Shown piece after piece: positions 1,984-14,527 of a stretch of 15,424 bases of DNA. The translations under genes were made by a program, and so were the position numbers. The stretch covers positions 1 to 15,424 of the forward strand of contig JAMORN010000329.1 in NCBI GenBank assembly GCA_027063545.1. The letters run 5' to 3'. Source of the DNA: JAMORN01 sp027063545 [NCBI: bacterium]. Its GTDB lineage: Bacteria > JAMORN01. A model generated the notes under the pieces. It had not been told where the DNA came from and did not search any database. It was given only the letters and a program-made list of their open reading frames with translations. Numbering within the stretch: the first letter of the stretch is position 1; each line of letters opens with the position of its first letter.

Positions 1984-3414
1984 ATGAAAGTTATAATTAA
2001 AGAATTGCCAGAAAAGTATAATTTTATAGATGAAGAAAGAATTCATAGTATTTTAGTCAATACAAAACCAGATAAGATTAAGATTAGAGAGATTCTTGAA
2101 AAATCAAAGGCTAAAAATAGATTAACATTGGAAGAAGCAGCAACTTTACTTAATAATGAAGATCCAGATGTTTGGGAGGAGATTTATGCAGCAGCACGAT
2201 ATGTAAAAGAGATAGTTTATGGTAATAGATTAGTTCTTTTTGCTCCCTTGTATATAGGCAGTAAATGTGTAAATGGATGTCTTTATTGTGGATTTTCTAT
2301 TGATAATCCTCATGCAATCAGAATGACTTTAACGAAGGAAGAGTTGATTAAAGAGGTAGAAGCCTTAGAGGACATGGGGCATAAGAGACTTATATTAGTT
2401 TATGGAGAACATCCTGAATATAATGGTGAAAGAATTGCTGAGGATGTAAGGACAGTATATTCAGTTAAGAAAGGAAAGGGAGAAATAAGAAGGGTAAATA
2501 TAAATGCAGCTCCTATGGATGTGGAAAACTATAAATTAGTTCATGAAGCAGGTATTGGTACATGGCAAATTTTTCAAGAAACGTACCATAGAGAAACATA
2601 TAAAAAGATGCATCCTAAGGGTCCAAAATCAAATTACTTATGGAGACTCACAGGACTTGATAGAGCAATGGAAGCAGGAATTGATGATGTAGGAATAGGT
2701 GTTTTATTTGGGCTTTATAATTATAAATTTGAGGTTTTAGCTCTTCTACAACATACAGAGCATTTGGAAAAAGAGTTCGGAGTAGGCCCTCATACAATAA
2801 GTTTTCCAAGACTTAATCCAGCTTTTGGTGCTTTAACAGAAACACCTTATAAGGTGAGTGATGAACAGTTGAAGCACATTATTGCAGTTTTAAGGCTTTC
2901 TGTACCATATACAGGTCTTATTCTAACGGCAAGAGAGCCTGCTCATTTAAGAAGAGAATTGTTTAAATTAGGCGTTTCTCAAACTGATGGAGGGACAAGT
3001 ATTGAGATGAAAGGTTATTCTAAGATGAGAGAGAGAAAGAAAGCTGATCAGGAGCTTGATAAAGAACAATTTAAAATAAATGATGTAAGAAGTTTAGATG
3101 AGGTGATATATGAGGCAGTTTTAGATGGCTATATTCCATCTTTTTGTACTTCATGTTATAGAGCAGGAAGAACAGGTGAGCATTTTATGGAATATTCAAT
3201 ACCAGGATTTATACATAATTTCTGTACTCCAAATGCAATTTTAACATTCTTAGAATACTTACTTGATTATGCTTCTGAAAAAACAAAGGAAGTAGGATTT
3301 AAATTAATAGATAAAGAGATAGAAAAGTTAAAAGAAGTAAATCCTAAAATATATAATGTACTACTAAAAAAGGTTGAAGAAGTAAAAAATGGGAAAAGAG
3401 ATGTATACTTCTAA
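1984..3414 (+). CDS. hydG: HydG, [FeFe]-hydrogenase maturase (radical SAM tyrosine lyase)
   Basis: HydG cleaves tyrosine to p-cresol and makes the CO and CN- ligands of the [FeFe]-hydrogenase H-cluster, in the cytosol with HydE and HydF. The 476-residue length is normal for HydG and longer than its paralogue ThiH. The radical SAM cluster motif CVNGCLYC has the expected Cx3Cx2C spacing at C95, C99 and C102. The C-terminal motif Cx2Cx22C at C388, C391 and C414 binds the auxiliary cluster carrying the labile iron; ThiH lacks this region, so the call is firm. The ATG at 1984 has GGGAGA 5 bases upstream. The gene starts its own unit behind a strong promoter and overlaps the next small gene. hydE, hydF and the hydrogenase are not in the window, so the maturation genes are scattered in this genome or lie elsewhere. 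Confidence 0.96.
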   Translation: MKVIIKELPEKYNFIDEERIHSILVNTKPDKIKIREILEKSKAKNRLTLEEAATLLNNEDPDVWEEIYAAARYVKEIVYGNRLVLFAPLYIGSKCVNGCLYCGFSIDNPHAIRMTLTKEELIKEVEALEDMGHKRLILVYGEHPEYNGERIAEDVRTVYSVKKGKGEIRRVNINAAPMDVENYKLVHEAGIGTWQIFQETYHRETYKKMHPKGPKSNYLWRLTGLDRAMEAGIDDVGIGVLFGLYNYKFEVLALLQHTEHLEKEFGVGPHTISFPRLNPAFGALTETPYKVSDEQLKHIIAVLRLSVPYTGLILTAREPAHLRRELFKLGVSQTDGGTSIEMKGYSKMRERKKADQELDKEQFKINDVRSLDEVIYEAVLDGYIPSFCTSCYRAGRTGEHFMEYSIPGFIHNFCTPNAILTFLEYLLDYASEKTKEVGFKLIDKEIEKLKEVNPKIYNVLLKKVEEVKNGKRDVYF

Positions 3415-3658
3415 AGAGAAAAAAAAACTAGAGAGAATAAAAAAATCTGTAAAGGATTTTATTAAAAATAAAAATAATATAAAAATTATATTAGCAGAGA
3501 GATATAATAAAAGAATCTCCTATATTTGGCATATAGGAAAAGAAAATTTTGAAACACCACATGAGATAGAATTATTTGATAAATACCTTCTTGTAGTTCA
3601 TACTGAAAATGAGGGGGTTATTTCTGAACTAAAAAATTATCTAAAAAATTTTTTATAA
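3389..3658 (+). CDS. Small basic protein, DUF721/DciA-like
   Basis: This gene encodes 89 residues (85 if translation begins at the in-frame ATG at 3401) and overlaps the 3' end of hydG by 14-26 bases, so it is probably translationally coupled to it. The N-terminal half is very Lys-rich. The second half reads as a short alpha/beta unit: IWHIGKENFETP, then ELFDKYLLVVHTENEG, then a final helix SELKNYLKNFL. This W-x-I-G, P, L-V-V, E-L pattern resembles DUF721/DciA proteins, some of which help load the replicative helicase. That resemblance is from memory of the family pattern and is not secure. Neither start has a strong ribosome-binding site: GAAGAAG precedes 3389 and GGGAAAAGAG directly abuts 3401. 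No transmembrane segment, cysteine or signal peptide is present. A function in hydrogenase maturation is not indicated. Confidence 0.7.
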   Translation: MGKEMYTSKEKKKLERIKKSVKDFIKNKNNIKIILAERYNKRISYIWHIGKENFETPHEIELFDKYLLVVHTENEGVISELKNYLKNFL

Positions 3659-3754: not shown

Positions 3755-4240
3755 GTGAAAAAGTTTATAACAATTTTTGTACTTTTATTTATAATTTATT
3801 TATTATATATTCAAACTCTTGTGATTCAGGAAATTATAGCTGGATTATTTGGTTCTTTAATAATTAGTTTTATTGTTGTAAATTACTTTAAATTTGATCT
3901 ATTTTCAGGTAATTTTATAGTTAAGATTGTGAAATTTTTTATACTATATGTCCCTAAACTATTAATAGAAATAGTAAAGGCAAACATTCATATGGCAATG
4001 ATTGTTTTATCACCAAAGATAAAGATTAAATCTGGGTTTGTAAAACAAAATACTAGTTTAGGCGGAGATATTTCTAGACTAATGTTGGCAAATTCTATAA
4101 CACTTACACCGGGAACATTAACAGTAGATGTTGATGAAGAAAAAGGTGAGTATATAATACATACTGTTGAAAAAGATAAAGTGAAAGGGAATGAAATAGT
4201 AGAACATTTTGAAAAAACTATAAAAGAGGTTTTTGAATGA
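3755..4240 (+). CDS. mrpE: MrpE/MnhE-like subunit (MbxA/MbhA) of the membrane complex
   Basis: This 161-residue protein is the first subunit of the ion-translocating Mrp-like module. Two N-terminal membrane helices (about residues 3-45) and a third hydrophobic stretch (about 58-85) precede a small cytosolic domain. The MrpE signature LANSITLTPGTLTVDV lies at about 114-129. Translation starts at GTG 3755, with GAGGG 5 bases upstream, right after the leader with the Rex-like palindrome. The stop overlaps the next gene by 4 bases (ATGA), indicating coupling. In Mrp, Mbh and Mbx complexes this subunit belongs to the sodium/proton exchange part; its exact role is not settled. Length is normal. Confidence 0.93.
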   Translation: MKKFITIFVLLFIIYLLYIQTLVIQEIIAGLFGSLIISFIVVNYFKFDLFSGNFIVKIVKFFILYVPKLLIEIVKANIHMAMIVLSPKIKIKSGFVKQNTSLGGDISRLMLANSITLTPGTLTVDVDEEKGEYIIHTVEKDKVKGNEIVEHFEKTIKEVFE

Positions 4241-4515
4241 TAGGATTAGGTGTATTAGATTTAACAATAATAGGTTTTATGAGTTTAGGACTTTTGTTTT
4301 CTCTTTTTGCAATAATTGTTTCAAAAAGAATAGAAGAGGCAATAGCATCTTTAGATGTTTTAAATATAATAATAAGTGCTTTAATTTTATTACTAGGAGT
4401 TGTTTATAAAAATTCTCTCTTCTATGATATTGCAATGATATATGCTGTTATAGGATTTATGGAAACAATAGTATTTTCAAGAATACTTGAAACAACAAAG
4501 AAGGAAGAAGAATAA
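4237..4515 (+). CDS. mrpF: MrpF/MnhF-like subunit (MbxB/MbhB)
   Basis: This is a 92-residue protein with three membrane helices. The conserved MrpF pattern is visible: a charged stretch followed by the essential-type Asp in RIEEAIASLDVLN, then DIAMIYAVIGFMETIVFSRILE near the end, which matches the third helix of the family. It overlaps mrpE by four bases (ATGA) and shares one base with mrpG (TAATG), so the three are translated in step. It forms part of the Mrp-like ion-exchange module, where MrpF is linked to the sodium path. A short acidic/basic tail (TTKKEEE) is cytosolic by the positive-inside rule. Confidence 0.92.
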   Translation: MIGLGVLDLTIIGFMSLGLLFSLFAIIVSKRIEEAIASLDVLNIIISALILLLGVVYKNSLFYDIAMIYAVIGFMETIVFSRILETTKKEEE

Positions 4516-4814
4516 TGGTTTTATTAGGAAAAATCTTAATGATAGTAGGGGCTATTTTTTTGTTTTTAGGGGGGTTAGGTGTTTTTAGAATGCCTGATGT
4601 GTATAATAAACTACAAGCAGGAACTAAAGCAACAACTTTAGGATTTATGACATTTGCTTTAGGTGTGGGATTTGTTGATGTATCTAATCTTTTAAAAATG
4701 ATAATAATAATTGTTTTTATAGCTCTAACAAACCCTGTTGGTAGTTCAGTTTTGGCAAAAGCTTCTTTTAGAAGAGGTGTAAATCCAGAGTTTAACAATA
4801 AAAGTGAGGAATAA
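4515..4814 (+). CDS. mrpG: MrpG/MnhG-like subunit (MbxC/MbhC)
   Basis: This 99-residue protein has three membrane helices. The MrpG hallmark GVFRMPDVYNKLQAGTKATTLG lies at about residues 22-43, followed by a hydrophobic helix and ALTNPVGSSVLAKASFRRG, the usual family ending. The start codon overlaps the mrpF stop by one base. MrpG packs with MrpE and MrpF in the antiporter-like module of Mrp, Mbh and Mbx complexes. Length and motifs are ordinary; the about 10-residue hydrophilic tail carries the ribosome-binding site of the next gene in its coding DNA. Confidence 0.94.
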   Translation: MVLLGKILMIVGAIFLFLGGLGVFRMPDVYNKLQAGTKATTLGFMTFALGVGFVDVSNLLKMIIIIVFIALTNPVGSSVLAKASFRRGVNPEFNNKSEE

Positions 4815-4815
4815 T

Positions 4816-5076
4816 ATGTTAGAATTAACTGCGATGGGAATATTTATGTTTATAATACTTTTATTCTCTTATTTTGCAATAGAAGTAAGAAGTATTTTAT
4901 ATTCAATACTTTTTTTGAGTGTAGCCTCTTTGATTGCGGTAGTACTATTTTTAATGTGGCAGGCTCCTGATGTAGCTATGACAGAAGCAGTTATTGGAGC
5001 AGGATTTACAACATTTTTACTTTTAATGGCATATCATAAACTATTCAAACACAACAAGGAAGAGGGAGATGAATAA
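4816..5076 (+). CDS. mbxD: MbhD/MbxD-like subunit (MrpA C-terminal DUF4040 type)
   Basis: This 86-residue membrane protein has three helices. The signature WQAPDVAMTEAVIGAG (about residues 48-63, conserved Glu57) is the DUF4040 segment found as the separate MbhD subunit in archaeal Mbh/Mbx and inside the C-terminal part of MrpA. I chose ATG 4816 rather than the in-frame GTG 4804 because GAGGA lies 5 bases upstream of 4816, and this start sits one base after the mrpG stop. The gene overlaps the next by 8 bases. The glutamate in this helix is part of the proposed proton/sodium path of Mrp-type complexes. A split MrpA is typical of Mbh/Mbx and of group 2 Mrp operons. Confidence 0.88.
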   Translation: MLELTAMGIFMFIILLFSYFAIEVRSILYSILFLSVASLIAVVLFLMWQAPDVAMTEAVIGAGFTTFLLLMAYHKLFKHNKEEGDE

Positions 5077-5818
5077 GGTTCTATCACTAATTTCTATCTT
5101 TATAATAATAGCAATTATAGGAGCAGGACTTTCAACAGGTCTTAAGGTTTATGATAAAAATAATTTAAATGGAAAAGCTGGCGAGATTTTTCTTAAAAGG
5201 GGAGCGTCCTTAAAAAGTGGATATAAAAAGATAGAAGAAGGAACAAAAGTATTTGGAGAGAAGGGTTTTGAGGCAACAGGGGCAAATACAGTTACAGAGG
5301 TTGTGGTAAATTACAGGTCTTTTGATACTTTGGGAGAGGTTACAGTTTTATTTATGGCAGCAACAGGGGTTTTAGCTCTATTTTATAGAAGAAAAAGGGA
5401 TATTTATTTTCTTCAACCAAATTATGTTTTAAAAATATCTAGTATTCTTATTTTACCTTTTATAGTAATGCTTGGTTATTATATATTTATTCATGGTCAT
5501 TTAACTCCAGGTGGAGGATTTCAAGGAGGAGTGATACTTGCGATAGCAACTCTTCTTTATGTTTTATCAAATCATCATAGTTCTTTTTTAAAAAAGTCTC
5601 TTAAAGTTTTAGAAGGCTTATCTGGTATGGGATATGTAGTTATAGGGCTTTTGGGAATAATAATGGGAGGATTTTTTTTATATAACTTTTTACCTTTAGG
5701 AAAAGTAGGAGATTTATTTAGTGCCGGTATTGTGCCAATTGTATATATTTTAATAGGTTTAAAAGTTGGGTCTGAAGTTTCAGGAATAATACTTGATTAT
5801 ATAGGGGAGGATGAATAA
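5069..5818 (+). CDS. MbhE + MrpB/MnhB-like fusion subunit (MbxF type)
   Basis: The 249 residues contain two units that are separate in Mbh. The N-terminal part (to about residue 107) has one helix, a soluble loop, then VTEVVVNYRSFDTLGEVTV, the MbhE/MrpA C-terminal motif. The C-terminal part (about 120-245) is MrpB, with FIHGHLTPGGGFQGGVILA at about 140-158 including His142 and His144, then two more helices. The fusion agrees with archaeal MBX, which as I recall has no separate E subunit. The ATG at 5069 has AGAGGGAG just upstream and overlaps the mbxD stop by 8 bases. It belongs to the sodium/proton-translocating module in the membrane. The loop between the first helix and the TGANTVTE segment (about 40-70) is Lys/Gly-rich and less conserved in appearance. 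Confidence 0.9.
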   Translation: MNKVLSLISIFIIIAIIGAGLSTGLKVYDKNNLNGKAGEIFLKRGASLKSGYKKIEEGTKVFGEKGFEATGANTVTEVVVNYRSFDTLGEVTVLFMAATGVLALFYRRKRDIYFLQPNYVLKISSILILPFIVMLGYYIFIHGHLTPGGGFQGGVILAIATLLYVLSNHHSSFLKKSLKVLEGLSGMGYVVIGLLGIIMGGFFLYNFLPLGKVGDLFSAGIVPIVYILIGLKVGSEVSGIILDYIGEDE

Positions 5819-5819
5819 T

Positions 5820-6194
5820 ATGTTGTCGTGGAATGAATTTTTGATTGATTGGGTATTTGTATATGGGCCTTTATCTATATTTTTTATTGGCTTATATGGG
5901 CTTATGACTCAGAAGAATTTATTAAAAATAGTAATTTCTATAGATATAATGGATTTAGGGGTCAATTTATTTATAGTGAGTTTAGGATATGTAAAAAATG
6001 GTGTGGCTCCGATCTATACCTCAAAAAATTTGATATTTATAAAGAATTTTGTGGATCCTCTTCCACAAGCATTAGTTTTGACTGCGATTGTGATTTCAGT
6101 GGCAGTTTCAGCATTTGTGTTATCTTTAACAATAAAAATATATGAAAAATATAAAACTGTAGATATTGATAAACTAAACACATTAGAGGATTAG
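5820..6194 (+). CDS. mrpC: MrpC/MnhC-like subunit (MbxG; NuoK-related)
   Basis: This 124-residue protein with three membrane helices is related to NuoK of complex I. The family motif FVDPLPQALVLTAIVISVAV is complete, and the preceding NuoK-like helix reads KIVISIDIMDLGVNLFIVSLGY. The ATG at 5820 was preferred over ATG 5811 because the strong GGGGAGG (5804-5810) would directly abut 5811 but is 9 bases from 5820. That start also follows the previous stop by one base, the same junction seen at mbxD. NuoK-type subunits carry membrane acidic residues of the proton path; here Asp residues (DIMD) occupy part of that helix. It bridges the Mrp module to the MrpD-type antiporter subunit downstream. Confidence 0.91.
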   Translation: MLSWNEFLIDWVFVYGPLSIFFIGLYGLMTQKNLLKIVISIDIMDLGVNLFIVSLGYVKNGVAPIYTSKNLIFIKNFVDPLPQALVLTAIVISVAVSAFVLSLTIKIYEKYKTVDIDKLNTLED

Positions 6195-6198
6195 GCGT

Positions 6199-7638
6199 AT
6201 GGTAAAAAATCCAGTATTATTAATTGCACTACCACTTATAATAGGTTTTTTCACAGCATTTATATCTCCTTTTATAAAAAAAGGTTATAGTATTATAGCA
6301 ATATTTACAGCAGCAATAACTACAATATTATCATCTTTACTTTTTAGTAATTCTGGAACAGATCTTATAACCTATCCAATTGGAGGATGGAGTACAAAAT
6401 ATGGTATATACTTAATTTCAAATATTCAAATAAGTGGTTTATTAGTGTTGGTGAATTTTATAGCGTTTTTAGCTCTTATTTATTATAGTATAAAAGAGAG
6501 AGATTTGGGTTCTGAATTAGGGTATTCTTTAGGATTTATACTTTCAATAGCAGCAGTAAATGGTCTTATTCTAACAGGTGATTTATTTAATATGTTTGTT
6601 TTTATAGAATTATTATCAATAGGTGGATATATTTTAGCCACACATAAAGGAGGATATTATTCTGCTTTTAAATATGTTGTATTATCTTCAATAGGAGGTT
6701 TATTCTTCTTAATTGGTGTAATTTCAATCTATAATGTAACAGGGCTTTTGAGTTTATTATATATTCCTAAAACAGAATCTTTTCATAATCTTCCGGCTAT
6801 ATTTTTAATAGTTTTATCAGTAATTTGGGTAATCGGGCTTTCTGGTGAAAGTGAACTTTTCCCATTAAATATGTGGGTTGGAAGTGTTTATAAAAATACT
6901 TCTACTTCAGCAGTTGTATTTTTCGCTAGTGTATTATCAGTAGGAGGAATTTATGCTATTATAAAACTATTAAGTTTAATATTTAATAATGGCTATGCAG
7001 CTATATATAGATATATATATGCTTTAGGGCTTATAACATTATTTATAGGTGAAGCAGTTGCTTTTAAACAAAAAGATGCGAAAAAGATGTTAGGTTATTC
7101 TTCAATTGCACAAGCAGGACTTATAATTTCGTTAGTAGCATTGAGTATAAAGAGTTCTTTAAATATAGATTTATACTCTTCTGCAATATTTCAATTAATA
7201 AATAATATAATAGCAAAGGCATTAGTACTATTTGGATTGGGCGTTATAGGGTATTCTGGTTTTAATAAATTAAAGGGTGTTGGTAAAGAGAGAAGAGAGG
7301 TTGCACTTCTTTTAACAATAGGGACTTTATCTTTGGCAGGAATGCCTGGTTTTGCAGGTTTTTGGAGTAAATTTTATATAGTTAAATCATTGGTATCAAA
7401 TGGTGAGATTGTTTTTCTTGTGGTATTCTTGTTTAGTGCTTTATTTGAGGTATATTATTTATTAAGACTTTCTCAAATAATACTATTTGAACCCCAAGAG
7501 GAAGAGGTTAGTTTAGAGATACCTTCTATTGTTGAGTATGTAATTTTAACAATGCTTGCAGCAGTAATACTTTATATAGGATTTTATCCAAATGTAATAT
7601 ATAACTTAATATGCAAAGTAGGATTGATAGGAGGATAG
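6199..7638 (+). CDS. mrpD: MrpD/NuoN-like antiporter subunit with altered TM7 (MbxH-like)
   Basis: This 479-residue polytopic protein of about 14 helices belongs to the MrpD/NuoN proton-antiporter family. Conserved elements visible are the TM5 glutamate in FVFIELLSIGGYIL (Glu137), the broken-helix segment KQKDAKKMLGYSSIAQAG (about 290-307), Lys340 in NNIIAKAL and GMPGFAGFWSKFYIVK (381-396, Lys391). The TM7 region is unusual. Where family members normally read GIKAG-FPLHFWLP, this protein has SGESELFPLNMWVG (215-228): the pumping lysine position holds Glu217 and the His is Asn224. The next usual lysine, in VK-GIY, is also absent (SVGGIY). This is not a sequence break; the reading frame is intact. 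GAGGA (6186-6190) precedes ATG 6199. The changes suggest modified ion transport in this subunit. Confidence 0.92.
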   Translation: MVKNPVLLIALPLIIGFFTAFISPFIKKGYSIIAIFTAAITTILSSLLFSNSGTDLITYPIGGWSTKYGIYLISNIQISGLLVLVNFIAFLALIYYSIKERDLGSELGYSLGFILSIAAVNGLILTGDLFNMFVFIELLSIGGYILATHKGGYYSAFKYVVLSSIGGLFFLIGVISIYNVTGLLSLLYIPKTESFHNLPAIFLIVLSVIWVIGLSGESELFPLNMWVGSVYKNTSTSAVVFFASVLSVGGIYAIIKLLSLIFNNGYAAIYRYIYALGLITLFIGEAVAFKQKDAKKMLGYSSIAQAGLIISLVALSIKSSLNIDLYSSAIFQLINNIIAKALVLFGLGVIGYSGFNKLKGVGKERREVALLLTIGTLSLAGMPGFAGFWSKFYIVKSLVSNGEIVFLVVFLFSALFEVYYLLRLSQIILFEPQEEEVSLEIPSIVEYVILTMLAAVILYIGFYPNVIYNLICKVGLIGG

Positions 7639-7644
7639 GGATTT

Positions 7645-9507
7645 ATGGCTTTTACAATAGGATCATTAATATACTCAGGGTCAATTTTTAGTGTTATAAT
7701 ATATCTACTAACAAGATTTTCTGTAAAATTAGGTTCTATTTTTACAACAGTACTTTTTGGTCTTTATGTATATGCTATTTATATACTAAAAGATAGTGTA
7801 TCTATATCTTTTATACATCTTCCAGGGGCGTATAATTTAACATTTAAGGCGGATTTATTTAATTGGCCATTTTTGATGATAGGTACTATTGTACTTTTTG
7901 TTTCAGCGCTATTTAGTATTCATGGGCTTAAAAGTTTCAAATCAGCAGCATCATTTAATTTTCTTTCTGTATTAGTTGGAACATCAGTTTTAGGGGTATT
8001 TGGAGCAAATGATTTATTAACTCTTTTTATATTTTGGGAGCTAATGACTTGGGCTTCATTTTTTCTGGTTTCAATGGGGAAAAAAGAGGCAAGAAGTGCT
8101 GCACTATTTTTCCTTTTTATGAGTATGATTTCTGCATATCTAATGATTTATGGAATGTTTTTGGTATATAATAAGGTAGGGTCATTTTCTCTAGACGTAA
8201 TAGCAAATAATTGGGGAGATTTATCTGATATAAGGGGGAGGTTATTTGTTTTATTTGTTTTAGCAGGTTTAATTAAGGGTGGTGTATGGCCTGTTCATGT
8301 ATGGCTTAGAACAACGCATGGAAATGCACCAAATATATTCAGTTCTGTGCTTTCTGGTATTTTAATTAAGTTTGGTTCATTTATTGTATATCTATTTGTA
8401 GTATTTTTCCCTGCTTTTTATTTGACAACAAAAGGAGTCTCTTCTGTTGGGGCTGAAAAATTATCACATCCGATTTTGGCTTATATTGGAGCAATAAGTA
8501 TAATGATAGGAACACTTTCTGCAATAAGACAGAATGATTTTAAGAAGTTAATTGCTTTTTCTTCAGTTAGTCATGCGGGATATATAGTTTTAGGTATTGC
8601 TTTTGGAACAGGAAGTGCTATTTTAGGAGGGCTTTCTCATATTTGGGTTCATGCTTTAACTGCAGCAGGAATGTTTTTATCAGCAGCAGCAGTTTATTAT
8701 GTAACAGGTACTACTAATATGGATGAAATGGGAGGATTGGTAAGGAAAATGCCAATAACATTCACTACATATTTAGTAGCAATAATCTCAGTTGCAGGAA
8801 TACCTCCACTTGCGGGATTTGTGTCAAAATGGCTTATTTATCAAGCATTAATTGCAAAAGGAAATTATCTATTAACATTTATAGCATTTTTTGGGTCTGT
8901 AGGCTCATTTTTATATGTATTTAGGCCACTTGCAACGGTATTTTTAGGCCAACTTCCTCATAAGTATGATAGTGTGAAGGAAGTGCCATGGAGTATGCAA
9001 CTTTCAATGCTTATAGTAACAATATTAACAATAGTATTTGGAGTGTTTCCTTCATTTATGTTAAAGCCAATAATTAGAATAGAGGAGGCGTTATCAATAC
9101 CAACAGTAAAAATAGAGGGCTATTCAAATATTTATACAATGCTTACACAACTTGATATGTTTTTAGTAGCGATTATATTTGGAATAGGATTTATTTTTGT
9201 TACAATACTATTTTTCTTACTTGCTAAATCAACAAAGGTAGAGCAATACGAGCAATATACAGCAGGTGAGATTGTACAGGAGATTTCAACAACACCAGAG
9301 ATTTATCATTATAGTAAAAATTATTATAGATCATTTGAAAGGGTTATTGAATGGGCACCTTCTTTAGAAGAGTATTATAGAATAGCAGCAAGACATATAA
9401 GCAGATTTTATGATATATTAGATGGAATAATATTTAAATCAGGAATACCAATGTATGTATGGTTTATCACAATAACAATTTTAGTACTACTATTAATTAG
9501 ATGGTAG
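7645..9507 (+). CDS. NuoL/MrpA-N-like antiporter subunit with lateral-helix tail (MbxH' like)
   Basis: The 620 residues form a NuoL/ND5-type antiporter subunit. The lysine/glutamate relay is visible: Glu132 in FIFWELMTW, Lys211 in LIKGGVWPVHVW, Lys242 in GILIKFGS, Lys300/301 in RQNDFKKLIAFSS and Lys395 in GIPPLAGFVSKW. In the broken helix, HALTAAGMF (His336) has Ala340 where many relatives have Lys. After the membrane domain there is a hydrophilic stretch and long amphipathic region (about 515-600, YEQYTAGEIVQ then YRSFERVIEWAPSLEEYY) and a last membrane helix. This resembles the lateral helix that braces complex-I-like antiporter subunits. Two ribosome-binding candidates, AGGAGG and AGGG, precede ATG 7645. 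Together with the MrpD-like neighbour it gives the two-antiporter layout of archaeal MBX. Confidence 0.92.
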   Translation: MAFTIGSLIYSGSIFSVIIYLLTRFSVKLGSIFTTVLFGLYVYAIYILKDSVSISFIHLPGAYNLTFKADLFNWPFLMIGTIVLFVSALFSIHGLKSFKSAASFNFLSVLVGTSVLGVFGANDLLTLFIFWELMTWASFFLVSMGKKEARSAALFFLFMSMISAYLMIYGMFLVYNKVGSFSLDVIANNWGDLSDIRGRLFVLFVLAGLIKGGVWPVHVWLRTTHGNAPNIFSSVLSGILIKFGSFIVYLFVVFFPAFYLTTKGVSSVGAEKLSHPILAYIGAISIMIGTLSAIRQNDFKKLIAFSSVSHAGYIVLGIAFGTGSAILGGLSHIWVHALTAAGMFLSAAAVYYVTGTTNMDEMGGLVRKMPITFTTYLVAIISVAGIPPLAGFVSKWLIYQALIAKGNYLLTFIAFFGSVGSFLYVFRPLATVFLGQLPHKYDSVKEVPWSMQLSMLIVTILTIVFGVFPSFMLKPIIRIEEALSIPTVKIEGYSNIYTMLTQLDMFLVAIIFGIGFIFVTILFFLLAKSTKVEQYEQYTAGEIVQEISTTPEIYHYSKNYYRSFERVIEWAPSLEEYYRIAARHISRFYDILDGIIFKSGIPMYVWFITITILVLLLIRW

Positions 9508-9517
9508 GGGAATGGAT

Positions 9518-10408
9518 ATGGTGAATATGATAATATTAGCAGTGGTGTTTGTAATTGGAGCATTTATTTTTCAGGTTACACTTTCAGGTTTTTCTAGAAA
9601 GGTAGTTGCTAGAATTCAAAAGAGAAGAGGACCAACTGTTTTTCAAAACTTTTACGATATTGGAAAACTTTTATTTAAAGAGAGTTCTATTTCTCATGGT
9701 TTTATATTTGATTTTGGTATATGGATGGCTTTAGGTAGTACTATTGCTACACTTCTATTTATGCCAGTAGGTGGATGGGCTTTAATGCCTAAGTATGCAA
9801 ATATTATAGTAATAATTTATCTCCTTGCTGTAGGATCTTTGGGAATGGCAATGAGTGCTGTTGGCTCAGGTAATCCATTAGCTTCAATAGGTGTTTCTAG
9901 GGCTTTAACTCAGATGTTTGCTTATGAACTTCCATTTGTGGTAATAGCAGTTTTAATAATATATTTAGCAAAGAGTTCTAATATATTAAAGATAATTGAG
10001 TATCAAACACAAAATGGTTGGAATTTATTTTCTATGCCAATAGGCGCGTTAGTGGCTTATATTAGTTTAATGGGTATGCTTGGAAAAAAACCTTTTGATA
10101 CACCAATAGCACCAGCAGAGATTGCTTCAGGTCCTTTAGTAGAATACAGTGGAAAATATTTAGGATTTTTAATGATTCAACATGAGTTTGCGACATTTAT
10201 AGAAGTAGGGCTTTTTGTTCATTTATTTATGGGTTCAACAAGTATTATAGGATTTTTAATTAAATATATTATCGTATATATAAGTGCTGTTATGATATCT
10301 TCTGTTATGGCAAGACTTAAGATAGATGAGGTAGTAAAATTCTATTGGAGATGGCCACTTGGACTTGCAATTTTACAAGCAATAATTACATTGGGAGTAA
10401 GATTCTAA
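9518..10408 (+). CDS. mbxM: NuoH/Nqo8-like membrane subunit (MbxM/MbhM, EchB type)
   Basis: This membrane subunit of 296 residues anchors the peripheral redox arm to the ion-pumping arm. NuoH landmarks are present: VARIQKRRGPTVFQNFYDI followed by GKLLFKE near the N-terminus, the Phe-Asp-rich segment KKPFDTPIAPAEIASG, then LVEYSGKYLG, with the glutamates that line the quinone-like cavity of this family. About eight hydrophobic helices are visible. I chose ATG 9518 because AGGGG (9506-9510) is 7 bases upstream; ATG 9512 is only 1 base from it, and ATG 9527 is also possible. The gene begins 10 bases after the NuoL-like gene. In Mbh/Mbx no quinone is used, so the cavity transmits redox-driven movement rather than binding quinone; that is known of relatives and inferred here. 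Confidence 0.92.
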   Translation: MVNMIILAVVFVIGAFIFQVTLSGFSRKVVARIQKRRGPTVFQNFYDIGKLLFKESSISHGFIFDFGIWMALGSTIATLLFMPVGGWALMPKYANIIVIIYLLAVGSLGMAMSAVGSGNPLASIGVSRALTQMFAYELPFVVIAVLIIYLAKSSNILKIIEYQTQNGWNLFSMPIGALVAYISLMGMLGKKPFDTPIAPAEIASGPLVEYSGKYLGFLMIQHEFATFIEVGLFVHLFMGSTSIIGFLIKYIIVYISAVMISSVMARLKIDEVVKFYWRWPLGLAILQAIITLGVRF

Positions 10409-10425
10409 TAAAAGGAGAATAGAGT

Positions 10426-10959
10426 ATGTCAATGTCAACAGTATCTTTGATGGAGAAGATAAAGAATATTATTAGGGGTCATTCTTTATGGATGCTTCAT
10501 TATTGTACTGGGTGTGGAGCTATGGAACTTCCGCCAACAATGACAGCAAGATTTGATATGGAAAGGCTTGGTTTTGCTCCAATGGCTACACCAAGACAAG
10601 CAGATATTCTTTTAGTTACAGGATATTTAAGCGTTAAGACATTAAGAAGGCTTATTTATACTTATGAACAAATGCAAGATCCTAAGTGGGTGGTTGGTTT
10701 TGGATCATGTACTATAAATGGGGGAATTTACTATGATTCTTATGCTACAATAAAAAGGTTGGATTTATATCTTCCTGTGGATTTATATATTGCTGGTTGT
10801 ATGCCAAGACCAGAGGCTGTTATAAATGGATTTAAAAAATTAATGGATATGATAAAAAGTGGTGAGGCTAATGGTTGGAAGAAGTATAAAGAAAATTTAG
10901 AGTGGTATAGAGCTAATCAAAGAAAGATCTTAGGAGATAGTTTATATGTAACAAGATAA
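10426..10959 (+). CDS. mbxJ: NuoB-like [4Fe-4S] subunit (MbxJ/MbhJ, EchC type)
   Basis: This 177-residue soluble subunit carries the terminal [4Fe-4S] cluster next to the NuoD-like subunit. The four ligands are C27 and C30 in YCTGCGAMEL, C95 in FGSCTINGG and C125 in AGCMPRPEA. The CxxC form at the first position, rather than the adjacent cysteines of complex I NuoB, is what energy-converting hydrogenases and Mbx use. ATRQADILLVTGYLS-like family segments (here ATPRQADILLVTGYLSV) are intact. The ATG at 10426 has AAAGGAG 8 bases upstream. A C-terminal extension (about 140-177) includes an amphipathic helix. It sits at the cytoplasmic face between NuoH-, NuoC- and NuoD-like partners. Confidence 0.95.
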   Translation: MSMSTVSLMEKIKNIIRGHSLWMLHYCTGCGAMELPPTMTARFDMERLGFAPMATPRQADILLVTGYLSVKTLRRLIYTYEQMQDPKWVVGFGSCTINGGIYYDSYATIKRLDLYLPVDLYIAGCMPRPEAVINGFKKLMDMIKSGEANGWKKYKENLEWYRANQRKILGDSLYVTR

Positions 10960-10975
10960 AATTAGGAGGCTAGCC

Positions 10976-11488
10976 TTGAAAGAACAAGAATTAATAGATT
11001 TAATAGAGAAGCATGTGAAGTATGAAGAGGGTAGTATTGAAGTATATGCTCCAAGAAAATTAAAGTTTATATTAAAAAAAGATGATTTAGTTGATACACT
11101 TTTATTTTTAAAGAGAAATGGGTTTGTTCAGCTTTCCTTTATAACTTGTGTTGATTGGATAAAAGATAATAAGTTTGAACTTGTTTATGGTTTGGTTTCT
11201 TGGGAACATAAACTAACAGTTTTAGTAAAAACATTTATAGATAGAGATAATCCTAAGATGATTTCAATAATGGATATATGGCCAACGGCCAAATATTATG
11301 AACAAGAAATAAATGAGTTTTTTGGTGTTTATTTTGAAGGTAATCCTAATATGAGTAAAGAATTAATATTAGAAAATTGGGATTCAATGCCACCATTAAG
11401 AAAAGATTTTGATCCACAATCTTATTCTAATGAGAAATTTGAAATAAGGATTTATGACTATAAAATGGAAGATAAAAAGAAAAAATAG
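10976..11488 (+). CDS. mbxK: NuoC-like subunit (MbxK/MbhK)
   Basis: This soluble 170-residue protein is of the 30-kDa complex I family. The family signature is clear near the end: YEQEINEFFGVYFEGNPN followed by LILENWDSMPPLRKDFDPQ. The N-terminal alpha/beta domain (about 1-85) includes FITCVDWI, equivalent to the usual D-x-DW region. Translation starts at a TTG codon (10976) with a strong AGGAGG 6 bases upstream, so the rare start is convincing; no nearby ATG fits as well. The gap to the previous gene is 16 bases. It is a structural scaffold for the NuoD-like subunit in the peripheral arm. Its lysine-rich tail (DKKKK) is short and unremarkable. Confidence 0.93.
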   Translation: MKEQELIDLIEKHVKYEEGSIEVYAPRKLKFILKKDDLVDTLLFLKRNGFVQLSFITCVDWIKDNKFELVYGLVSWEHKLTVLVKTFIDRDNPKMISIMDIWPTAKYYEQEINEFFGVYFEGNPNMSKELILENWDSMPPLRKDFDPQSYSNEKFEIRIYDYKMEDKKKK

Positions 11489-11499
11489 GGTGAAGAGTT

Positions 11500-12609
11500 A
11501 TGGGAGAAATAAAAGCATTACAATTATTTCATGGTCCTAACCATCCTGGAATGCATGGAAATTTTTCAGTACATATTAAGGTAGATGGAGATATAGTTGT
11601 TGAGGCAGAAGCAAATCCAGGGATGCTTCATAGAGGTTTTGAGAAGTTAATGGAGAGAAGAAATTGGATGCAAAATATTGCCTTGATTTTAAGAGTGTGT
11701 GTAGTTGAGCCTGATATAAATGAGGCTGCTTATTCTATGGCGGTGGAGACTATTGAAGGTATGGATGTACCAGAGAGGGCTCAATGGATTAGGGTTATGA
11801 TTTTGGAGATGGCTAGAATTGCCAATCATTTAATGAGTTTGGGAGGAATTGGAGGACCAACAGGATTATATACAGGACCAAACTGGGCATTAGTAGATAG
11901 AGATTTAATCCTTGATATATTTGAGAAGATTACAGGTGCAAGAGTATATCATATGTATATTGTTCCTGGAGGAGTAAGACAGGATGTTACAGACGAAATT
12001 TTAAAGGATTTAGAGAAGGTACTTGATGATATAGAAAAAAGGCTACCTGAATATAGGGAATTAATTTTAGAGCATCCTATAATTCAAAAAAGGACAAAGA
12101 ATATTGCTGTATTAACAAGAGATCAGGCTTTAAGTTGGGGGGTAACAGGAATAGCTTTAAGGGCAACAGGTGTTGATTATGATGTAAGAAAATATGATCC
12201 TTATTTAGTATATGATAAAGTTGAGTTTGATGTGCCAACAGTAGACTTTAGTGATGCTTATAATAGATTATGGTTGAAGTATCAAGAGATTTATCAAAGT
12301 ATAAGGATAATTAGACAAGTAATAGAAAAGATGCCATCAGGAAAGGTTAGGGAAAAACTTCCAGGGAATGCTTTAAAGTGGAGAGTTAAAAAGGGAGATG
12401 CTTACGTAAAACTTGAGTCAGCAAGAGGTGAATTTGGTTATTATATGGTATCAGATGGAGGAACAAAGCCTTATAGAGTTTTTGTTAGAGGAGCTTCTTA
12501 TCCACAAGGGCTTTTAGGAATAGAAAAAGGTCTTCCTGGTACAAGGCTTGAGGATGTAGCAATTTGGCTTGATACAATGGGAGTTTGTGCGCCGGAAATA
12601 GATAGATAA
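11500..12609 (+). CDS. mbxL: NuoD-like catalytic-core homologue lacking a complete [NiFe] site (MbxL)
   Basis: The 369 residues belong to the 49-kDa complex I / [NiFe]-hydrogenase large subunit family. Typical segments are HGPNHPGMHG (11-20), MLHRGFEKL (42-50) and SDGGTKPYRVFVRGASYPQG near the C-terminus. True [NiFe] enzymes carry two CxxC pairs. Here the first reads RVCVVE (C67 kept, Glu70 in place of the second Cys), and the last reads DTMGVC (Met360 in place of the first Cys, C363 kept). The protein ends six residues after C363, so there is no cleavable maturation peptide. The site therefore cannot bind Ni-Fe as in hydrogenases, and the gene groups with Mbx-type rather than Mbh-type complexes. 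A GGGTGAAG sequence precedes ATG 11500. Confidence 0.94.
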   Translation: MGEIKALQLFHGPNHPGMHGNFSVHIKVDGDIVVEAEANPGMLHRGFEKLMERRNWMQNIALILRVCVVEPDINEAAYSMAVETIEGMDVPERAQWIRVMILEMARIANHLMSLGGIGGPTGLYTGPNWALVDRDLILDIFEKITGARVYHMYIVPGGVRQDVTDEILKDLEKVLDDIEKRLPEYRELILEHPIIQKRTKNIAVLTRDQALSWGVTGIALRATGVDYDVRKYDPYLVYDKVEFDVPTVDFSDAYNRLWLKYQEIYQSIRIIRQVIEKMPSGKVREKLPGNALKWRVKKGDAYVKLESARGEFGYYMVSDGGTKPYRVFVRGASYPQGLLGIEKGLPGTRLEDVAIWLDTMGVCAPEIDR

Positions 12610-12626
12610 TAATTGGAGGCATGGAT

Positions 12627-14456
12627 ATGGATAAACCAAAGGCAAATTTATTTTCTTCAATAAAGAGTTTAAAGTATTTATTTAAAAAACCAGTTACTAT
12701 AGAGATCCCTAAAGTATATAGAGAAGCAGCAGATAGATATAGGGGGTTTCATACAAATGATTGGGATAAATGTATTGGATGTGGAACATGTTCAGAGATT
12801 TGCCCAACAAATGCTATTAGAATGGAAAAGGTTCCTGGATATGAAGCAGGTAATGGTCAAACAGATGAAAGACCAGTAATAGATTATGGTAGATGTTGTT
12901 GGTGTGGTTTTTGTGTTGATATTTGTACTACAGGGTCTTTAAAGATGTCTAAGGATTACATATTTATTTCTCCTGATGCAAATGATTTTATTTATATACC
13001 AGATGAGGAAGGAATAAATAAAAATTATCCAGAAGAAGGTTATAGAAGAAATGATGAAACAGATTTACTTGAACTTGAAAGGGTTATAATGGGTCATCTT
13101 TCTGCTGAGGAGAGAGGAGATTCTTTTATAGAATATGTTAGAGGATATAGTAAAGAAGAGGCAATAAGAGAGGCTTCTAGATGTGTAGAATGTGGAATTT
13201 GTACATATACTTGTCCTGCCCATATGAATATACCAGAATATATTAGAACAATTTGGGAGGATGATTTAGAAAAAGGAGTTGAATATCTATATAAAACAAA
13301 TCCATTGCCAGGAGTATGTGGTAGAGTTTGTACCCATAAATGTGAGAGTGTATGTTCATTAGGACATAGGGGAGAACCTATAGCAATTAGATGGCTTAAG
13401 AGATATATAGTTGATAATACTCCAGATGACGAGTATGAAAAGGTTGTTTTAGCAGAGGTATCAAAACCAGGAAAAGGTAAAGTAGCAATTATTGGAGCAG
13501 GGCCTGCAGGCCTTTCTGCAGCGTATTATTTAAGAACATTAGGGTACGAAGTTGATGTATTTGAGCAAATGCCACTTGCAGGTGGTGTAATGAGATATGG
13601 TATTCCAAGGTATAGACTTCCAGATGAAGCTTTAGATAGGGATATTAGTTTTATAGAAAAAATAGGTGTAAGAATTCATACAAATTATAAGGTTGATAAA
13701 GAAAAATTTAAGGAATTAAAAGAAAAATACGATGCAGTATTTCTTTCTACAGGATTTTTTACAGGAAGAAAGTTGCCTCCACATATACTTCCAGGTAGTG
13801 ATCATACAGATGTAATTGCTGCTATGGATTTTCTACCAAAGGTAAGGGATTTTGTAAGAGGAATGGGCGAGATGCCAGAGGTAGGAGAAAAGGTGGTAAT
13901 AATTGGTGGTGGTAATGTTGGTTTTGATGTTGGTAGAAGTGTGGTAAGACTTCAAAGAATGAAATATGGGAAAGTTGATGTAACAATTACGGCTCTTGAG
14001 AGTGAAGATATTTTACCAGCAGATAGAGAAGAACTTGAAGAAGGAAGAGAAGAAGGATTAAAGGTTGTGTTCTCCAGAGGTCCAAAGGAAATAGTAATAG
14101 AAGATGGAAAGATAAAAGGATTATTAACAGTTAAGTGTTTGAGAGTTTTTGATGATGAAGGAAAATTTAATCCTCAATTTGATGAAGAAGATAAATTATT
14201 CTTAGAGGCTGACCAAATATTTATGGCAGTTGGTCAAGCACCGGATTATAATTATATCCCTGATGATATAATGGAGAAATTAGAAATTGTTAGAGGAAAG
14301 ATTAAAGCAGACGAATATGGAAGAACAAATTTTGAATGGTTGTTTGTAGGTGGTGATATTAAAGAGGGTCCTGATATTATTCATGGTATTGCAAATGGTC
14401 ATAATGCTGCCAAGGCAATAGATGAGTATTTAAGAAAGAAATATGGAATAGAATAA
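12627..14456 (+). CDS. Fused NuoI-type ferredoxin and GltD/NfnB-type FAD-NAD(P) oxidoreductase subunit (MbxN fusion)
   Basis: The 609 residues (numbered from ATG 12627) carry three units. Residues 25-115 are an MbxN/NuoI-like 2[4Fe-4S] ferredoxin: C49, C52, C55, C59 and C90, C93, C96, C100, with an extra C91. Residues 180-260 are the GltD/NfnB Fe-S domain: C186, C189, C192, C196, then C231, C235, C239, C243 (CGRVCTHKCESVC). Residues about 285-605 are the flavoprotein with an FAD motif IGAGPAGLSAAYY (G290-G295), a second Rossmann motif IGGGNVGFD (G427-G432) and a closing FVGGDI FAD-contact. In GltD and NfnB the second fold continues with Arg-Arg before a Pro-Ala; here that place is Leu457-Glu458, which favours NAD(H). 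GGAGG is 7 bases before 12627; ATG 12621 is the alternative. As last gene of the operon it likely links ferredoxin, the membrane complex and NAD(H). Confidence 0.93.
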   Translation: MDKPKANLFSSIKSLKYLFKKPVTIEIPKVYREAADRYRGFHTNDWDKCIGCGTCSEICPTNAIRMEKVPGYEAGNGQTDERPVIDYGRCCWCGFCVDICTTGSLKMSKDYIFISPDANDFIYIPDEEGINKNYPEEGYRRNDETDLLELERVIMGHLSAEERGDSFIEYVRGYSKEEAIREASRCVECGICTYTCPAHMNIPEYIRTIWEDDLEKGVEYLYKTNPLPGVCGRVCTHKCESVCSLGHRGEPIAIRWLKRYIVDNTPDDEYEKVVLAEVSKPGKGKVAIIGAGPAGLSAAYYLRTLGYEVDVFEQMPLAGGVMRYGIPRYRLPDEALDRDISFIEKIGVRIHTNYKVDKEKFKELKEKYDAVFLSTGFFTGRKLPPHILPGSDHTDVIAAMDFLPKVRDFVRGMGEMPEVGEKVVIIGGGNVGFDVGRSVVRLQRMKYGKVDVTITALESEDILPADREELEEGREEGLKVVFSRGPKEIVIEDGKIKGLLTVKCLRVFDDEGKFNPQFDEEDKLFLEADQIFMAVGQAPDYNYIPDDIMEKLEIVRGKIKADEYGRTNFEWLFVGGDIKEGPDIIHGIANGHNAAKAIDEYLRKKYGIE

Positions 14457-14490: not shown

Positions 14491-14527
14491 GCCTTCCCCT
14501 CTTAAAAAATAGGGGAAGGCTTTTTTT
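14491..14527 (+). terminator. Intrinsic terminator ending the Mrp-Mbx operon
   Basis: GCCTTCCCCT (14491-14500) pairs perfectly over 10 bases with AGGGGAAGGC (14511-14520) across a 10-base loop, followed by seven T residues. It lies 35 bases after the last operon gene. On the minus strand the hairpin is followed only by TTATAG, a poor T-tract. It may therefore stop the convergent GH5 gene only weakly. Confidence 0.95.

Follow-up and report, generated by a model that had tools for sequence, protein, structure and literature searches.

A bacterial MBX-type operon with a GltD/NfnL-type flavoprotein fused to MbxN: a candidate NAD(P)H-fed, sulfane-reducing ion pump

The window analyzed here is the whole of contig JAMORN010000329.1 (15,424 nucleotides; C329 of the 355 contigs in a 1.57-Mb draft genome, 82.7% complete, assembly GCA_027063545.1) from the bacterium JAMORN01 sp027063545. 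It carries an operon that encodes a bacterial MBX/MBS-type complex of 13 subunits, whose MbxN arm would contain a built-in NAD(P)H dehydrogenase. In our favoured reading, to which we assign a probability of about 0.5, this flavoprotein would be the electron entry module, for NAD(P)H and perhaps also ferredoxin, of a sulfane- or disulfide-reducing, ion-pumping MBX core. Gene content and order, cluster cysteines, the loss of hydrogenase and quinone residues and the co-occurrence with Rnf are observations; the direction of the electrons, the substrate, the nucleotide and the ion are inferred.

The fused MbxN subunit and its operon

The last gene of the operon is a single continuous frame of 611 amino acids (aa), and therefore the flavoprotein is covalently part of the arm of the complex. 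Residues up to ~130 are NuoI/MbsN-like and hold eight cluster cysteines (51-61 and 92-102), while residues ~150-611 are of the GltD or large Nfn subunit type, with eight more cysteines (188-198 and 233-245) and with folds for FAD and for NAD(P); the 16 cysteines together suffice for the four [4Fe-4S] clusters of the fused chain, and each of the 18 aligned rows (18/18) has all of them. The protein matched the NCBIfam family NF010590 (PRK13984, “putative oxidoreductase”) with 950.7 bits against a cut-off of 946, the match spanning residues 5-607 and profile positions 6-609 of 611. In contrast, MbsN of Pyrococcus furiosus MBS (formerly MBX, PDB 6u8y) is a 208-aa chain that was matched only over the NuoI-like part.

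Residues ~150-611 matched 4ylf by sequence (6.3e-74), and a fold search with the AlphaFold model of the fused protein returned Nfn-type large subunits as the closest folds, with template modelling (TM) scores, taken by target, of 0.85-0.87 (0.85 for 5jca_L). The model has a mean confidence (pLDDT) of 80.1; confidence is high in the flavoprotein half but on average below 70 over the first 140 residues, so that the model is no guide to how the two halves are joined. The flavoprotein resembles NfnL/NfnB, the large subunit of the NADH-dependent ferredoxin:NADP oxidoreductase Nfn, in sequence, fold, its eight N-domain cysteines and an arginine at flavin N5, and differs from it in being fused to a NuoI-type arm and in its nucleotide motif. 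A glutamate ligand for the NfnL-type clusters was considered and is not claimed, as the residue numbers expected for it did not fit.

The operon consists of 13 open reading frames (ORFs) on the + strand, from 3755 (GTG start) to 14456, in which neighbours overlap or lie no more than 17 bases apart, and all 13 proteins have a family match above the Pfam gathering score. The order is MnhE, MrpF, MnhG, MbhD, MbhE/MnhB, NuoK-like (MrpC), two Proton_antipo_M proteins, NuoH, NuoB, NuoC, NuoD and the fusion of 4Fe-4S, Fer4_20 and Pyr_redox_2 domains; named in the style of MBS, the genes are A, B, C, D, E, G, H, H', M, J, K, L and N. We take this to be the full gene order of P. furiosus MBX/MBS. The same 13 subunits are listed for MBS in passages of the structure paper (PMC7684303), and the mbx gene strings printed in passages of PMC3608648 match the order of the window. 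Chain-by-chain comparison of five subunits (L, J, H, H' and M) gave a chain of 6u8y as the best solved relative each time. The ORFs and family matches agree with the original prediction, which described 13 packed genes comprising an Mrp module, two antiporter subunits, a NuoHBCD-like core and a fused ferredoxin/FAD-NAD(P) subunit; its claim that the MBX-type complex has its own fused, nucleotide-linked flavoprotein is borne out by the family matches and the one-frame fusion, and the nucleotide motif leans towards NAD(H).

We surveyed 386 sampled bacterial genomes with NF010590 at E <= 1e-130 and found the fusion in 19 of them, belonging to 15 families and including the genome of the window; three of the 19 score above the curated cut-off. 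Among 14 control genomes Thermotoga maritima was the only one to match at 1e-130, also above the cut-off, with what we take to be the gene of its mbx operon; the likeness between the two proteins, both above the cut-off, is one established via the shared family profile. The fusion is already catalogued by NCBI as NF010590 and is present in T. maritima, the window being a further example of a known, uncharacterised type.

Moreover, we examined 19 further loci, namely the surroundings in the 18 other fusion genomes plus L008 from a Bacteroidales draft genome. The fused gene stands directly after MbxL in 19/19, and therefore the flavin module appears to be wired to the MBX core; the E-values together with this constant operon end rule out chance. 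The operon was seen from A to N in 15 of the loci, with B or D undetected in four (L052, L053, L055 and L063), and contig ends truncate the remaining four, N itself being cut in L064 and L065. A search with MbxJ alone at 1e-45 gave 21 of the 386 genomes. Three MbxJ genomes are without the fusion at threshold, two with a short N (G181 and G316, with stop-to-stop lengths of 193 and 177 aa) and one cut before N (G213). L112, L114 and P. furiosus are clearly unfused; L113 is cut before N, and L115, where the gene reaches the contig edge and the linker matches fused relatives, was counted in neither class. Genome G105 has two MBX operons, one fused (L052) and the other (L115) cut by the contig end inside N. 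In the MbxL tree P. furiosus MbsL lies beside two fused loci; the idea of several separate fusion events was dropped, as a single fused clade was not rejected on the J+L tree (p-AU 0.53).

A GltD-like partner has reportedly been remarked upon in Thermotogales. In our literature search around Mbx and its partners, which covered mainly listings and passages, neither a description of a fused MbxN-GltD protein nor a measured activity of a bacterial MBX with a fused flavoprotein was found. The link between the fused form and the three-cysteine site, the Rnf co-occurrence, the LE/YRR split and the MbxH changes, all described below, were not met either; the searches were not aimed at these and absence is not claimed. 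In PMC9431562, no mention of GltD, glutamate synthase or MbxN was found.

The catalytic site in MbxJ and MbxL

According to passages of PMC7684303, the proximal [4Fe-4S] cluster of MBS has only three cysteine ligands (C28, C93 and C123 of MbsJ), the preceding motif being short; this three-cysteine cluster itself reduces polysulfide, and C25 of MbsJ and C85 and C385 of MbsL are dispensable. MbxJ of the window shares this motif and aligns with MbsJ (6u8y_J) without gaps over residues 8-172, catalytic loop included, the short loop of MBS being present. Among fused-type MbxJ sequences C28 is kept in 18/18, C93 in 18/18 and C123 in 17/18, whereas the equivalent of C25 is Gly in five of the 18, as expected for a residue that is not a ligand. 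In MbxL, the equivalents of C85 and C385 are both kept in 16 of 20 fused-type loci, the window included.

The four cysteines that bind NiFe in group 4 [NiFe]-hydrogenases (Mbh) were sought in MbxL of the window, and only one cysteine was found at each end. A complex-I-like NADH:quinone oxidoreductase would suit the overall build, the HPGMHG motif of the window MbxL, which keeps the His of HPxxHG, and the mqnC matches in two of the fusion genomes. Against it, the MbxL position that we take to be aligned with the quinone-site Tyr of Nqo4 (NuoD) is Val in the window and Tyr in 0/20 MbxL sequences; unlike complex I (Nuo), MbxJ has CTGCG where NuoB has its tandem CC, and there is no NuoEFG in the window. 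As for menaquinone markers at E <= 1e-20, menD was found in 0/19 fusion genomes and mqnC in 2/19 (G255 and G345), which leaves 17 of the 19 without either marker, and mqnC was not found in the 82.7% complete genome of the window; thus, menaquinone is not the usual acceptor, and we regard quinone reduction by this complex as very improbable. Judged by these residues, the core looks like a sulfane reductase, rather than a hydrogenase or a quinone reductase.

Electron entry, nucleotide preference and the relation to Rnf

If the flavoprotein is the entry module, it would be the counterpart of the NuoEFG module. NADH, which is predicted to be preferred here to NADPH, would deliver a hydride to the FAD, and the electrons would run through the two NfnL-type and two NuoI-type [4Fe-4S] clusters of the same chain to the three-cysteine proximal cluster of MbxJ, as they do from NuoF in complex I. 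Sulfane, polysulfide or another disulfide would then be reduced in the chamber between MbxJ, MbxL and MbxM, a reduction that would drive ion movement via MbxM, MbxH' and the Mrp module. Ferredoxin, the donor in P. furiosus MBS, may feed in electrons as well.

In both glutamate synthase and dihydropyrimidine dehydrogenase, the donor of electrons to the GltD-type partner is NAD(P)H. In MBS, coupling is described as running from the peripheral-arm cluster and the chamber through M to the antiporters (passages of PMC7684303), from which it would follow that electrons passing from ferredoxin straight to the flavin of the same chain bypass the coupling chamber, so that a ferredoxin:NAD+ reaction would not obviously pump. 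For both reasons, the route past the chamber and the habit of GltD-type partners, we favour the flavin as donor. The 4.36-fold rise of T. maritima mbxA on sulfur, reported in a passage of PMC9431562, also counts for NADH-fed sulfane reduction.

Near the nucleotide-binding fold, three solved relatives (one NfnL and two of NfnABC type) have YRR where the window has ALE. Acidic residues bind the ribose of NAD and arginines bind the 2'-phosphate of NADP; with the acidic LE motif in place of the YRR arginines, the flavoprotein of the window is therefore expected to prefer NADH over NADPH, a prediction of moderate strength, and NADP is predicted for the YRR class. YRR is missing as well from some glutamate synthases that depend on NADPH, and NAD specificity from LE alone is kept only as a lean. 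The stretch is covered by 18 rows, of which 13 belong to the LE class and five (L043 and L060-L063) to the YRR class; the YRR rows are also without seven or eight residues immediately before the motif. On the J+L tree (16 rows) the two classes need two changes, L008 (LE) lying beside L060 (YRR).

Several points weigh against an NADH-fed sulfane reductase. With potentials of ~-320 mV for NADH and ~-260 mV for polysulfide, the reaction yields little energy, hardly enough to pump under standard conditions, and this is its weak point. In L008 (MbxJ at 7573-8247), an otherwise complete fused operon, the third ligand of the cluster is Tyr, and both MbxL cysteines are gone in four of the 20 loci, so the chamber may not be uniform. 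The donor of MBS is ferredoxin, not NADH (passages of PMC7684303), and T. maritima already has a soluble NAD(P)H polysulfide reductase (passages of PMC9431562). Finally, passages of PMC3608648 place an intact 13-gene mbx in clade 3 of Thermoanaerobacter and Rnf in clades 1 and 2, a separation that would suit a shared function.

Such a function was proposed in the original prediction, which read the complex as an ion-pumping ferredoxin:NAD(H) oxidoreductase doing the job of Rnf with complex-I-like parts; if right, the two systems would share the ferredoxin:NAD couple, although they are built from different subunit families. The span from ferredoxin to NAD+ is, by the redox potentials, large enough to pump, and the lean of the nucleotide motif to NAD is also in favour. 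Besides the separation of clades in Thermoanaerobacter, ferredoxin drives the homologous MBS (passages of PMC7684303), and ferredoxin:NAD(P) activity is proposed or stated for Mbx in passages of PMC3608648, PMC4596419 and PMC6349859. However, the P. furiosus complex behind the proposal proved to be a direct reducer of sulfane sulfur (passages of PMC7684303), the conserved reductase site would be unneeded for a ferredoxin:NAD reaction, the expected bypass of the chamber would argue against pumping, and the genome carries Rnf genes of its own apart from the operon. On balance we hold this reaction to be rather unlikely, if far from negligible.

In the genome of the window, a single cluster holds rnfC (596 bits) and, after it, D, G, E, A and B, with RnfG scoring 93.6 against a cut-off of 102. 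RnfB (G000:C281, L110, 13471-14509) lies in two frames of 95 and 249 aa, by an assembly frameshift or a real break. RnfC is above cut-off in 16/19 fusion genomes, compared with 151/367 genomes without the fusion and 167/386 overall; the three exceptions are G044, G255 and G314 (97, 83 and 83% complete). The excess has a Fisher p of 2.4e-4, a value that ignores kinship and a shared anaerobic life style, and the only claim we draw from it is that Rnf and fused MBX do not exclude each other. PF01512, common to RnfC, NuoF and HydB, matched in 19/19 fusion genomes and separates nothing. In the control searches T. maritima has both the fusion family and RnfC, and passages of PMC9431562 likewise give it both MBX and Rnf. 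The expectation that rnf would be absent where the operon is present thus fails, in the window's genome as well as in T. maritima, the claim that the complex does the job of Rnf finds no support, and a replacement of Rnf by MBX was rejected on the rnf cluster and the 16/19 count. With RnfC in so many fusion genomes, ferredoxin:NAD+ work would therefore be left to Rnf.

A further alternative is confurcation, in which NADH and reduced ferredoxin would meet at the Nfn-like flavin and together reduce a sulfur compound, or electrons from NADH would be split by bifurcation, some going to ferredoxin and some to the MbxJ cluster, in either case with ion pumping in addition. In fold, the flavin half comes nearest to the Nfn large subunit, and the equivalent of Arg187 of T. 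maritima NfnB, which contacts flavin N5 (passages of PMC6405883), is kept in all rows covering the position. Unlike Nfn, no NfnS-like partner (FAD, [2Fe-2S]) or other [2Fe-2S] flavoprotein was found in the operon, which is what the search covered, and the flavin has only one chain of clusters leading away from it. The arginine is also present in the non-bifurcating dihydropyrimidine dehydrogenase, and we consider confurcation improbable.

Ion-pumping subunits, surroundings of the operon and implications

MbxH' of the window keeps all five charged sites of MbsH' (E128, K217, K248, H336 and K399). MbxH, in contrast to MbsH, keeps E138, E219 and K393 but is without equivalents of K250, a lysine of the ion axis, and H330; among the 15 bacterial MbxH rows with letters at these sites, fused and unfused, only L114 has K250 and no row has H330. 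A His four residues past the H330 site is kept in several other loci and is Asn in the window. MbxM keeps D196, E203 and E211 and, unlike MBS, is without E104 and E193. The comparison of H and H' sites covered the loci other than L008, L060, L062, L063 and L116, in which a single open frame of ~1030-1125 aa encodes both H and H', and other than L057 and L064, which are cut; the latter two were also left out for MbxM. It is our guess that a weakened first antiporter subunit suits a redox span smaller than that from ferredoxin to sulfur.

Table 1. Features of the window, with the match or property on which each assignment rests.
Feature	Position	Strand	Evidence
MbxA (MrpE/MnhE-like), 161 aa, GTG start	3755..4240	+	PF01899 3.9e-34
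MbxB (MrpF-like), 92 aa	4237..4515	+	PF04066 9.4e-13
MbxC (MrpG-like), 99 aa	4515..4814	+	PF03334 4.5e-23
MbxD (MbhD-like), 90 aa	4804..5076	+	PF13244 5e-16
MbxE (MbhE + MnhB), 249 aa	5069..5818	+	PF04039 1.6e-22, PF20501 2.6e-8
MbxG (MrpC/NuoK-like), 127 aa	5811..6194	+	PF00420 6.1e-29
MbxH, first antiporter-like subunit, 479 aa	6199..7638	+	PF00361; best solved relative 6u8y_H
MbxH', second antiporter-like subunit, 620 aa	7645..9507	+	PF00361; 6u8y_X 1.6e-67
MbxM (NuoH-like membrane anchor), 298 aa	9512..10408	+	PF00146 7.5e-62; 6u8y_M 1.9e-54
MbxJ (NuoB-like), 177 aa, MBS-type three-cysteine proximal cluster motif	10426..10959	+	6u8y_J 7.6e-72
MbxK (NuoC-like), 170 aa	10976..11488	+	PF00329 4e-32
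MbxL (NuoD-like), 369 aa	11500..12609	+	6u8y_L 5.5e-102; PF00346
MbxN fused to GltD/NfnL-type flavoprotein, 611 aa	12621..14456	+	NF010590 950.7 bits; Pfam; cysteines; fold
Terminator-like hairpin downstream of last gene	14498..14515	+	1 found vs 0.3 expected

Just upstream of the operon lies the gene for HydG, the [FeFe]-hydrogenase maturase (1984-3414; TIGR03955, 522 bits), whose end is overlapped by an 89-aa ORF (3389-3658) without a Pfam or NCBIfam match. Elsewhere in the genome, contig C128 has a NuoF/HydB-like gene and a partial HydA6-like gene, and G000:C164 (L066) encodes, beside a NuoF-like gene, an 884-aa protein with a [2Fe-2S]/NuoG-like start, a GltD-type domain and YgfK- and FeFe-hydrogenase-like matches, which by its domains may be an NfnABC-type enzyme. 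Downstream, on the - strand, a partial GH5 cellulase (PF00150; 14538-15424) is cut by the contig end; its frame has an in-frame TAA and then runs on into an FPNPSNPT... stretch, by a broken gene or a sequencing error. This stretch resembles the sorting domains of type IX secretion, a hint that the lineage may have that system.

Taken furthest, the complex would be an independently built relative of complex I, in which a sulfane-reducing pump core gained an NADH dehydrogenase by an Nfn/GltD-type fusion instead of NuoEFG, confurcation of NADH and ferredoxin would let a small span pump, NAD and NADP forms would occur in different lineages and one antiporter would have been given up as a pump to suit the span; as a whole we think this picture quite unlikely. 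How the NADH and ferredoxin pools are coupled to ion pumping sets the energy yield of fermenting anaerobes, and our analysis narrows the question to two reactions that can be tested against each other, one taking NADH in and one giving it out, and names residues that could be altered to probe either. Should NADH be the input, the fused MBX would be a second, separate route to NADH input for a complex-I-like machine.

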